Part shown: piece after piece, positions 234 through 3,494 of the stretch
Position numbering within the stretch: the first letter of the stretch is position 1
Layout of the letters: every line of letters starts with the position of its first letter
From: Deltaproteobacteria bacterium
GTDB taxonomy: Bacteria; Myxococcota_A; UBA796; UBA9615
NCBI GenBank assembly: GCA_023954745.1
Contig: JAGSHC010000036.1
Span: 1-35,616 of the forward strand
Direction: 5' to 3'
Length of the DNA: 35,616 nucleotides
The notes under the pieces: generated by a model
Told to the model about the DNA's origin: nothing
What the model saw: the letters and a program-made list of their open reading frames with translations, nothing else
Databases searched by the model: none
Position numbers and translations under genes: made by a program

Positions 234-1580
234 TCAGACGACGATCTCCTCCCAGCCGGAGCTTCTCAGCTTCCGTAGGGCGAGCGCGGCGAGCAGGACG
301 CGGGACGCCGCCATGGCCAGCCAAAGGCCGACAACTCCCCACTGGAGAGTGACTCCGAGAATCCAGGCGAGCGGAATCAGGACGAGGTATTGCGCGCCCA
401 GCTGCACGGCGGCGGCCCACCGCGTCGCTCCCGCACCGAGCAGGCTGTAGATGATCACGAAGGGCACCGCATCTACGACGAACGAGATCGAGAGGATTCG
501 CAGAGCGGGGGCCGCAAGGTCGATGACCACCTGATCCGGGGTGAAGCCCGAGAGGATCAGTCCCGGGGCGAGCTGGAGCACTGTCGCAGGGACAAGGAGG
601 ATCACCAGCGCGATCCTGAGGGTCTGCCAAACCATCGCGCGGGCCTCGGCAGGGTCCTTGCGCCCCAGGGCCCGGCCGACGAACGTGGCGCCGGCGAGTC
701 CAAAACCGAGGGCCGGGAGAAACCCAACAGAGGCCAGCTGAATCAGGATGGTTCCCGCGGCGAGCTCCCGGGTGCCGAGGTGGCTGTGGATGAGCTGGAA
801 GAGCATGTAGCCGCCCATCAGTCCCATCCCCCGCAACGCCTCGGGCCAGGACAGCGAGCCGAGCCGACGAGCCACTGAGACCGAGAGGGACGTGAACCGG
901 AAGGGCTTGTATCGAGACCGCACCTCGGGGTTGGCCACGGCGAGGACCGTGTAGCTCACCGTGCCGGCGGCTGCCGCCAGGGCCGAAGCCAGAGCGGCTC
1001 CTTGCACTCCCATGGCTGGAGCGCCCAGGTGGCCGAAGATCAGCACCCAGTTGAGGAAGAGGTTCACCGTGTGGATGACCAGAAGGGTCTTCAGGTAGAC
1101 CTTCGAGCGGCCGATTCCGTTCCAGAACCCCCGGAAGCAGTAGTTGGCGGTCACCACGCCGAGGGCCATCAAGCGAATCCCCATGTACTGAGAGCCGCCA
1201 GCGACCACGGTCGCGTCGTCCGAGAGCAGGGGGAAGATGTGGGGAGCGAGCACACTGAGGAGGCCGCCCAGGGGAAGGGCGACCAGCAGGGTGGTGACGA
1301 GGGCCGTGTCCAGCGCAGCACCGGCTCCCTCCGGGTCGTCCTGGCCATCGCGTCGGGAGACCATCGCCTGCACGCCGGTCCCGAGGCAGATGGTCAGATT
1401 CGCCAGGACGAAGAAGGTGATGGACCCGAGCCCGACGGCCCCCTGCGCTGCGGGTCCCAACCGCCCGACCATGGCCGCGTCGACCACGTTGAGGATCATC
1501 TGAGAGCCCATCCCACCGATGATCGGGCCAGCCAGCACGAGAATGGTCCGCGTGCGCGCCCGGTCGAAGAGCGTCGTCAT
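234..1580 (-). CDS. MATE family multidrug/sodium efflux transporter
   Basis: The 448-residue product has the length and alternating hydrophobic pattern (about 12 membrane helices) of the MATE (NorM/DinF-type) family. These proteins export cationic or otherwise toxic compounds using a Na+ or H+ gradient across the inner membrane. The N-terminal half shows the typical first-helix region (LAGPIIGGMGSQMIL, then NVVDAAMVGRLG), and the second half repeats the fold. The ATG overlaps the stop of the upstream protease gene by four bases (ATGA), so the two are probably translationally coupled and co-transcribed. The substrate cannot be read from the sequence. Family assignment is firm; the subfamily is not. 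Confidence 0.9.
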   Translation of the reverse strand: MTTLFDRARTRTILVLAGPIIGGMGSQMILNVVDAAMVGRLGPAAQGAVGLGSITFFVLANLTICLGTGVQAMVSRRDGQDDPEGAGAALDTALVTTLLVALPLGGLLSVLAPHIFPLLSDDATVVAGGSQYMGIRLMALGVVTANYCFRGFWNGIGRSKVYLKTLLVIHTVNLFLNWVLIFGHLGAPAMGVQGAALASALAAAAGTVSYTVLAVANPEVRSRYKPFRFTSLSVSVARRLGSLSWPEALRGMGLMGGYMLFQLIHSHLGTRELAAGTILIQLASVGFLPALGFGLAGATFVGRALGRKDPAEARAMVWQTLRIALVILLVPATVLQLAPGLILSGFTPDQVVIDLAAPALRILSISFVVDAVPFVIIYSLLGAGATRWAAAVQLGAQYLVLIPLAWILGVTLQWGVVGLWLAMAASRVLLAALALRKLRSSGWEEIVV

Positions 1581-2347
1581 GGGTTCCTTCTGCGGCCGGG
1601 AGGCACGCCGTCATCTTCGGGGTACAGATCGTCCGAGCAGTCTGCGCAGTAGCGCATCGGAAGGTAGCCGGTGAAGAGCGTGGGGAAGAAGTAGAGAAAG
1701 AACGTGCGCGCGTCGACGCCGTCGTACATCGAGCACCACGCATTGGTGCAGTGGCCACCGCTCCCGTGGCCGGGGTCTCCGACCAGTCCCAGTGTGTGGC
1801 CGAACTCGTGCACCAGCACCGAGGCTTCCTGCCGCACGTCGGTGATCCATGCGATGGACTTCAGCTGGTCCTGGAAGATGAGGATGAGCGCGGCGTCGTA
1901 GTTCGGGCTCGTCCTCGCCATCACGGGCCGGGTCCAGGCGAAGCCTCGGTACCCATGAAAGCGCGGTCCGTAGAGGATGTGGACCGTCGCGAGGGACCCT
2001 GGGGCGGGCCGCTCCAGCGAGCGCGTCCGACGCGCCAGGGACCGAAGCACCTGGTCCGACTCCTGCCAAGCCTCCGGGGGGAGCAGATCGTCGACGACGA
2101 CGGTGATGCCATCGGGCTTGTCTGTGAGGTCGCGCAGGCGGAGGGCCAACTTTCGCAGCGCCCGCGGTCGTGGCTCCGAGCCCTGCACGCGGTCGACTTC
2201 GAGGAGAAGCCGGCTGGCGGGCTCCGACTCCAGGACCCGGGCATCTCGCCACGCGGGCGCCTCGGGACCCGTGGGCCGGGGAAGCGACGCGCACCCGCCG
2301 AGCGCCAGCGCGAGGAGGACGGCGGCGAGTCCAGGGGGGATGCGCAT
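1577..2347 (-). CDS. Lipoprotein zinc metalloprotease, archaemetzincin-like
   Basis: The product (256 residues from the ATG at 2347; a TTG at 2356 would add three) begins with a signal peptide ending in a lipobox LGGC (Cys19). It is therefore predicted to be a membrane-anchored periplasmic or surface lipoprotein. Near the C-terminus it has HEFGHTLG (zinc ligands His180 and His184, catalytic Glu181), then GGHC (His199-Cys200), then C-x4-C-x-M (Cys200, Cys205, Met207) and a CADC pair (Cys234, Cys237). This order matches the archaemetzincin (M54) signature: HExxHxxG, HC-x4-C-x-M, CxxC. It differs by an insertion of about nine residues before the third His and a longer spacer (26 rather than 17) before CxxC. 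The first ~150 residues are not recognised. It overlaps the MATE gene by 4 bp. The protease class is well supported; the substrate is unknown. Confidence 0.75.
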   Translation of the reverse strand: MRIPPGLAAVLLALALGGCASLPRPTGPEAPAWRDARVLESEPASRLLLEVDRVQGSEPRPRALRKLALRLRDLTDKPDGITVVVDDLLPPEAWQESDQVLRSLARRTRSLERPAPGSLATVHILYGPRFHGYRGFAWTRPVMARTSPNYDAALILIFQDQLKSIAWITDVRQEASVLVHEFGHTLGLVGDPGHGSGGHCTNAWCSMYDGVDARTFFLYFFPTLFTGYLPMRYCADCSDDLYPEDDGVPPGRRRNP

Positions 2348-2444: not shown

Positions 2445-3494
2445 ATGCGCGGCCTCTCCCTTCTGGTCGTCCTCCTCGCTCTTCCAGCCTGTGACTGGGC
2501 GGCGGCGGACGGCCCCTGGAATCAACCCTCGGACGACGGACCGCAGTCCACCGTGGCGCGGGTCGAGGGACGCATCTGTGAGCCGGGAGGCTTGCGAGAC
2601 GTCCCAGGGATCGGCGTGCGCCTGCTCGATGCCAACGAAGAAGAGGTCGCGGTCGTGACGACCGACCCCTGGGGCCGCTGGGACGCGGAGTTGCCGAGCG
2701 GGCGCTTCAGCATCGAGGCGGGCGTGGGCGGGAACTTCGAGGCGTACGACGCGGTGCTCGTGGACGAGGGCAGCGACGGGAATGCGGGGGTGCTCTGTCT
2801 GGAGCGGGGAACACCTCAGTCGCTGCTCTTCCGTGCGCCCGTGGCAGAGTCCACGGACCTTCTCGGCCAGCGGCTCTCCGGCCTCGGGCTCGCTCATGTG
2901 CACGAAGGCCCGGGGAATGCGTCCGAGGCGGCGCAGATCCTGGCCTCACCCGCCGGTCTCGTGGAGTACGGCATCGTCGCCCTCCTCGGAGGGCTCGACT
3001 TCAGCGAGCTGGCGTCGGCCCCCGGGGCTCTGGACGGACTGCGTGACCACCTGGCGGGGGGAGGTGGGCTGTTCCTCTCCGCCGACGCCTGGCCGGTCTT
3101 CGATGCGCTCGCGCCGGGGAGCATCTCGCTGCTCGCTGAGCCGGCCTCGGGGGGATGGGTGCTCGCGTCCATTCCGTCGGAGCCGTGGGCGATGCAGCTT
3201 CAGTGGCCCGACGTCGGAGTTCCGGTGCCCAAGGATGCGCTGCTCTTCGAGCTACTGGACGGAGAGTCACTGCTTCGAGCGGATGTCCCGGCCGGAGAGG
3301 ACGGTGCCATCGTCACGGCGGACCTCCTGGTGCGCGTGCCCGTGGACGCCGGCACCGTCGTCCTCAGCTCCTTCCTGGCTCCTCCCCCGCGCGCCGACGG
3401 CTGGTGGATGGGCGACCCGGTCGAGGAGCAGTCGCCCAACGGCGTCTGGGATGGTCGGGGAGCGGTCCTGGACCGGGTCCTGTTGCAGTTCTAG
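2445..3494 (+). CDS. Lipoprotein with a carboxypeptidase-regulatory-like domain
   Basis: The start chosen is the ATG at 2445 because it is followed at once by a lipoprotein signal, LLALPAC with lipobox Cys16. The frame stays open upstream but has no signal there. The 349-residue product has, at roughly residues 30-90, a small beta-sandwich-like segment (RVEGRICEPGG, then VRLLDANEEEV, then TTDPWGRWDAELPSG) typical of carboxypeptidase regulatory/SD-repeat-like domains. The remaining ~240 residues contain a segment like class-I-glutamine-amidotransferase folds (YGIVALLGGLDFSEL, then LRDHLAGGGGLFLS), without an obvious catalytic Cys. It is transcribed divergently from the metalloprotease, with under 100 bp between them. 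Function is unknown; an envelope binding or structural role is possible. Confidence 0.75.
   Translation: MRGLSLLVVLLALPACDWAAADGPWNQPSDDGPQSTVARVEGRICEPGGLRDVPGIGVRLLDANEEEVAVVTTDPWGRWDAELPSGRFSIEAGVGGNFEAYDAVLVDEGSDGNAGVLCLERGTPQSLLFRAPVAESTDLLGQRLSGLGLAHVHEGPGNASEAAQILASPAGLVEYGIVALLGGLDFSELASAPGALDGLRDHLAGGGGLFLSADAWPVFDALAPGSISLLAEPASGGWVLASIPSEPWAMQLQWPDVGVPVPKDALLFELLDGESLLRADVPAGEDGAIVTADLLVRVPVDAGTVVLSSFLAPPPRADGWWMGDPVEEQSPNGVWDGRGAVLDRVLLQF

Follow-up and report, generated by a model that had tools for sequence, protein, structure and literature searches.

We report a lipoprotein gene whose product would be a metzincin-type zinc peptidase and which overlaps the gene for a MATE exporter in the window, by which we mean the whole stretch of 35,616 nucleotides that was analysed. 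Our preferred reading, held with modest confidence and drawn from sequence comparison, is that the protein is anchored in the cell envelope, is co-translated with the exporter, and, more tentatively, acts on or clears the pumped material. It appears to belong to an unnamed, phylum-wide family set apart from the archaemetzincins (M54). This family lies nearest to M54 by profile, and we do not claim that it belongs there.

The lipoprotein gene and its motifs

The gene is an open reading frame of 256 amino acids plus a stop codon on the minus strand (1577–2347) and starts with ATG. The plus-strand reading of the same interval is unrelated to the lipoprotein. Orthologs within the order are henceforth referred to as the clade, and related proteins elsewhere in the phylum as the wider family. 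The features are as follows.

1577–2347, minus strand: metzincin-like lipoprotein gene (open frame; an ortholog in each of the order's seven genomes; dN/dS ~0.37)
2291–2347, minus strand: signal peptide and lipobox LGGC19, residues 1–19 (read by eye; a lipobox-type Cys is also present in orthologs and wider-family members)
1823–2218, minus strand: conserved N-terminal half of the domain, approximately residues 44–175 (aligns through the 29-member family)
1787–1810, minus strand: HEFGHTLG, residues 180–187, with two predicted zinc His, the catalytic Glu and the metzincin Gly (H180, E181, H184 and G187 in 29 of 29 members)
1754–1786, minus strand: 11-residue loop, residues 188–198, displacing the third His (length comparison of clade, wider family and M54)
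1727–1753, minus strand: H199-C200-x4-C205-x-M207, with the predicted third zinc His, two Cys and the Met of the Met-turn (family conservation)
1637–1648, minus strand: C234xxC237 (C237 in 28 of 29 members; C234 in the whole clade and 1 of 23 others)
234–1580, minus strand: MATE family exporter, 448 amino acids (PF01554, 150.5 bits; TIGR00797, 227.7 bits; partner gene in orthologs)
1577–1580, minus strand: ATGA stop/start overlap of the lipoprotein and MATE genes (RTGA at six readable junctions of the order)

The C-terminal motif reads H199-C200-TNAW-C205-S-M207, then, after 26 residues, C234-AD-C237. A sequence-only reading of the window had described the order HExxHxxG, HC-x4-C-x-M and CxxC, named His180, His184 and His199, called the protein a lipoprotein and noted a 4-bp overlap with a MATE exporter; on all of these points our analysis agrees with it. 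By eye, a hydrophobic signal and a lipobox Cys (LGGC19 and its equivalents) are found across the clade. The residue after Cys19 is Ala rather than Asp. In E. coli, Ala rather than Asp at this position sends a lipoprotein to the outer membrane, which suggests that the window lipoprotein is sorted there, away from the inner-membrane pump, with the caveat that the E. coli rule may not hold in this host.

The same reading had described an unrecognised N-terminus of ~150 residues. This region is not peculiar to the protein, as it is conserved throughout the 29-member family described below. Judged by its position, it probably corresponds to the N-terminal half that zincin catalytic domains normally have, together with a short lipoprotein linker, with no extra domain; its homology to the N-terminal subdomain of M54 is weak in profile comparison. 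Two AlphaFold models, made from three sequences only (the window protein, L002 and L003), had pLDDT values of 40.5 and 42.3, too low for the fold to be read from them.

The peptidase gene occurs in each of the seven genomes of the order. The orthologs share 42–64% identity in the clade alignment, and comparison with the nearest one gave a dN of 0.33 and a dS of 0.89. H180, E181, H184, G187, H199, C200, C205, C234, C237 and D240 are present in 7 of 7 rows of this alignment. M207 is the only motif residue that varies in the clade (Leu in 2 of 6), and all six full-length members have a Gly-to-third-His gap of 11 and a Met-to-CxxC spacer of 26. Because the motif residues other than Met207 are kept, the gene is found in every genome of the order and dN/dS is ~0.37, the motif is not a product of chance.

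A family of metzincin-like lipoproteins across the phylum

We searched a profile built from the first relatives against 379 sampled genomes of the phylum. Matches were detected in 65 genomes at E ≤ 0.001 and in 50 (13%) at E < 1e-10. The weakest, which span only the HExxH region, are probably unrelated. Most of the members that were inspected are lipoproteins. Seven genomes (G241, G190, G226, G298, G117, G242 and G011) carry two wider-family genes each, which are adjacent to one another in G117 and G242. The family had no match in a plasmid collection.

We aligned six clade members with 23 others. H180, E181, H184, G187, H199, C205 and D240 are invariant in all 29 rows, each of which thus contains the putative metzincin motif, HExxHxxG with a downstream third His (H199). 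M207 is present in 27; the two exceptions have Leu and both belong to the clade. No curated Pfam or NCBIfam model scored over its cut-off for the window protein or for any of the 29 members scanned. Below cut-off, model scans and profile comparison gave similarity to metzincin profiles only, and this was distant. The best phmmer match in the PDB, FAS-associated factor 1 at 0.008, falls outside the catalytic motif and was judged to be chance. A PDB profile search returned only matches driven by HExxHxxG, the best being a serralysin-type protease at 0.042, with no archaemetzincin among the 60 matches listed.

The third histidine had been described as displaced by about nine residues relative to archaemetzincins, which is correct: 11 residues separate it from the Gly in the clade, compared with 2 in canonical M54s (24 of the 24 measurable ones in the same phylum). 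The displacement is real and is not peculiar to this gene. Since the gap is 19–21 in the wider family and 11 in the clade, it is a trait of the family as a whole. We also considered H194 as the third ligand. This candidate was rejected, as four wider-family members have N, M, G or A at the position; H199 never varies, and its conservation in 29 of 29 while H194 varies makes it the likely third metal ligand. The spacer of 26 residues from M207 to C234 had likewise been counted correctly. It is 16 in canonical M54s of the phylum by our own count, and X17 in the published archaemetzincin consensus (PMC3427221).

The cysteines differ in how widely they are kept. The family retains the pair formed by C205 (29 of 29) and C237, which would be a natural disulfide in an exported protein. 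C200 is present in all of the clade and in 10 of the 23 other members, the remaining 13 having Asp, and C234 is nearly confined to the clade. Within the family, the four cysteines occur together only in this clade.

From these patterns we propose the following arrangement. In a lipoprotein predicted to be tethered to the cell envelope, H180, H184 and H199 would bind the catalytic zinc and E181 would serve as the general base. The substrate cleft is probably shaped by the additional loop that precedes H199. The family-wide pair C205 and C237, joined in the clade by C200 and C234, may hold the C-terminal subdomain together, whether by forming two disulfides or by binding zinc in a Cys4 site like that of archaemetzincins. 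The invariance of the catalytic residues in 29 of 29 members, a lipobox throughout the clade and the distant similarity to metzincin profiles alone favour this assignment; the low pLDDT of the two models and the replacement of Met207 by Leu in two clade members count against it.

Coupling to a MATE exporter within one order

The exporter gene is a clear MATE, scoring 150.5 bits with PF01554 against a cut-off of 24.9. An RTGA overlap of 4 bp is kept at all six readable junctions of the order (the window, L014, L015, L016, L018 and L019), which come from five genera and two families and in which the partner is a MATE or MATE-like protein. In the seventh genome (G004), the peptidase and MATE genes both end at contig edges, in matching orientations. 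The partner in G006 (L019, 6084–7283, minus strand) is a very divergent MATE-like protein that keeps a GTGA overlap. The clade MATE profile gives it 55 bits and PF01554 only 20 bits, below the cut-off, and the closest MATE of that genome is located elsewhere. This partner is possibly decaying or re-specialised.

We surveyed the flanks (up to ~1.5 kb) of 24 distinct wider-family loci and detected no MATE gene; the sole MATE match in the wider-family lists (L031) is the clade member of G005 itself. Pairing as a family-wide feature was thus rejected. Other families of the class have MATE homologues at 36–45% identity that are not accompanied by the peptidase, and we likewise rejected the idea that this MATE clade depends on the peptidase. 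With the wider family lacking the MATE and the MATE homologues standing alone elsewhere, the pair is a gain or retention of one order. The upstream hydroxyacid dehydrogenase gene is also conserved in three other genomes of the clade, so synteny alone may account for some of the linkage; the exact overlap is a stronger sign of coupling than linkage.

Co-translation in this order of bacteria means that peptidase and pump would be made together. The peptidase most likely acts on or clears what the pump exports, which may be a peptide or a peptide-capped compound. The sequence-only reading had suggested such a joint function from the overlap. The pairing on which it relied holds throughout the readable junctions of the order and fails at every wider-family locus surveyed; any joint role would therefore be confined to the clade. 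Close MATE homologues without the peptidase and wider-family peptidases without a MATE neighbour both weigh against it, as do the outer-membrane sorting suggested by the Ala after Cys19 and the failure to recognise a biosynthetic cluster nearby, and we propose a joint role of pump and peptidase only tentatively.

The protein could instead be a general housekeeping peptidase of the envelope that turns over surface proteins or damaged ones, a role that the wider family would also have, with the MATE as an operon partner with which it has no common substrate. We regard this as a serious contender, if short of probable. It fits the 24 wider-family loci, the occurrence of the MATE clade on its own, and a neighbourhood of ATP synthase genes, DnaJ and a dehydrogenase. 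Against it stands the exact RTGA overlap, which none of the order's readable junctions has lost, not even the one with the very divergent partner in G006. The neighbouring genes scanned also include a transporter, a thioesterase and amylases, and no biosynthetic cluster was recognised among them. A putative lipoprotein (LPAC; 2445–3494, plus strand) is transcribed divergently from the peptidase gene. It has only a sub-threshold carboxypeptidase-regulatory-like match and, of the six clade regions compared, only that of G001, a genome of the same genus, contains it.

Relationship to the archaemetzincins

The sequence-only reading had linked the protein to M54. An archaemetzincin that turned into an exported lipoprotein and acquired a loop ahead of the third His, with its structural Cys4 zinc site retained, would account for much of what we observe; on balance, we find this origin unlikely. 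A Pfam search gave no PF07998 match for the window protein, and its NF033823 score was 13.2 bits against a cut-off of 145. We note that L020, a clear M54 of the host, reaches only 93.8 on NF033823 and yet passes PF07998. NF033823 is the model most often touched below cut-off, by 18 of the 29 members (best 6.2e-6), which speaks for an M54 origin.

We also compared profile with profile, using controls for M54, M43 and reprolysin built from genomes of the same phylum. The clade profile scored 68.5 with M54, 36.7 with M43 and 31.9 with reprolysin, placing it nearer to M54, and in its alignment with M54 the signature of that family falls on H199-C200...C205-x-M207 and C234xxC237. With the clade left out, the wider family scored 58.4, 53.6 and 37.3, respectively, about as near to M43 as to M54, and the controls scored 38–55 against each other. 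The part of the claim that survives is the proximity of the clade profile to M54; no M54 model passes its cut-off. A tree built from 82 domains recovers the clade (99/98) and unites it with the wider family (94/94), and that group has no supported neighbour, M54 included.

All four cysteines stand in M54 order, and they had been proposed as the M54 ligand set. They are present in the clade, but two of the four are not a family trait, and the sister group lacks them. As proof of M54 membership we rejected the four-cysteine motif. An M12B protease has the same HC-x4-C-x-M spacing, and in adamalysin-type enzymes two disulfides occupy positions like those of the M54 zinc site (PMC3427221). The pattern is undiagnostic because its spacing is common to an M12B enzyme, where such positions form disulfides. 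We do not file the protein as an archaemetzincin because the models stay below cut-off, the tree does not place it with M54 and the host already has a canonical M54. The latter, L020 on host contig C250, scores 40 bits and is over the PF07998 cut-off. In L020, CxxD-H (CPLDH) replaces the final CxxC, with an x5 spacer, and the same is seen in L084.

The host encodes a second stretched archaemetzincin-like lipoprotein, L150 (contig C415, match at 866–1240, plus strand; ortholog L038/L149). It has the lipobox LVGC, HELGHALG, a 15-residue gap, HC-x4-C and CxxC; its loop contains an additional pair of Cys, and 14 residues separate Met/Leu from CxxC. Its ortholog in G001, L038, matches the archaemetzincin model NF033823 at E 7.7e-7, and the two lie beside M54 in the tree with modest support (85/75). 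L150 resembles the window protein in being a lipoprotein with a lengthened loop before the third His and four Cys, and differs in its gap of 15, extra Cys pair, spacer of 14 and clear M54 resemblance. That an exported M54-like protein with a stretched third His exists separately in the same genome keeps an M54 origin of the window gene alive. Archaemetzincins had also been taken to be generally soluble. Four canonical M54s (L077, L078, L081 and L082) start with apparent Sec signal peptides, so the archaemetzincins of the phylum are not all cytosolic, which qualifies that description.

Finally, we give very little credence to the idea that the metzincin fold has lost catalysis here and serves in binding or regulation. 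A parallel would be CarG of Myxococcus xanthus, a regulatory homologue of M54, and the crystallised archaemetzincin was inactive on the substrates tried (PMC3427221). But CarG has lost the catalytic Glu (PMC3427221) and is a subunit of a transcriptional regulator, whereas Glu181 and the three His are kept by every one of the 29 members here and the window protein is exported.

Significance and comparison with known systems

We return to an envelope-anchored metzincin-type peptidase as the preferred reading. The family occurs in about one eighth of the sampled genomes of the phylum with no Pfam or NCBIfam model over cut-off, and many ‘hypothetical lipoproteins’ could be annotated as zinc peptidases with named, testable residues. 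The clade is a natural test of a third zinc ligand moving along the chain, and of four cysteines serving as a zinc site or as disulfides after export of an enzyme. The conserved coupling gives a concrete, testable claim on the MATE transporters. To our knowledge, the natural substrates of this transporter class are mostly unknown. A broader scenario, which we offer as a long shot, is that the phylum carries lipid-anchored metzincins intermediate between archaemetzincins and other metzincins, in which the third-His loop would have lengthened stepwise, the cysteines would have switched between a Cys4 zinc site and disulfides on export, and one clade would have fixed a pump-peptidase module that matures or clears MATE exports. 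As far as a light literature search can tell, metzincin-like lipoproteins that lack a model, have a lengthened third-ligand loop and show clade-specific pump coupling appear to be new. A lengthened third-ligand loop as such is already known, in far longer form, in leishmanolysins (PMC11957388).

The proposed pump-peptidase pair works like ClbM-ClbP of colibactin, and the likeness is in mode of action only: an exporter is followed by an envelope peptidase, ClbP, that activates the exported precursor (PMC9889268). ClbP, however, has membrane helices, belongs to the S12 family of serine peptidases and is encoded in a biosynthetic cluster, whereas the window encodes a metallopeptidase-like lipoprotein with no cluster recognised. 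Among metzincins, the leishmanolysins (M8, GP63) set a published precedent in that an insertion separates their Gly from the third zinc His (PMC11957388), but theirs is at least 62 residues long, they have many more Cys, and we found no sequence match to them in this analysis. Pappalysin-type enzymes (M43) have the metzincin motif and are the second-best control for the wider family; they differ in a third His 2 residues after the Gly and in having no HC-x4-C-x-M. The adamalysins/reprolysins (M12B) have the motif and a similar Cys spacing beside the third His, with cysteines at similar places forming two disulfides (PMC3427221), but their profile score is weak and their third His follows the Gly by 2 residues. 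Measured against the archaemetzincin consensus HEXXHXXGXXHCX4CXMX17CXXC (M54; PF07998; NF033823), the window protein, a lipoprotein below the M54 cut-offs, has a gap of 11 instead of 2 and a spacer of 26 instead of 16–17; it has HExxHxxG, HCX4CXM and CxxC in the same order, and M54 is its best-scoring profile control.
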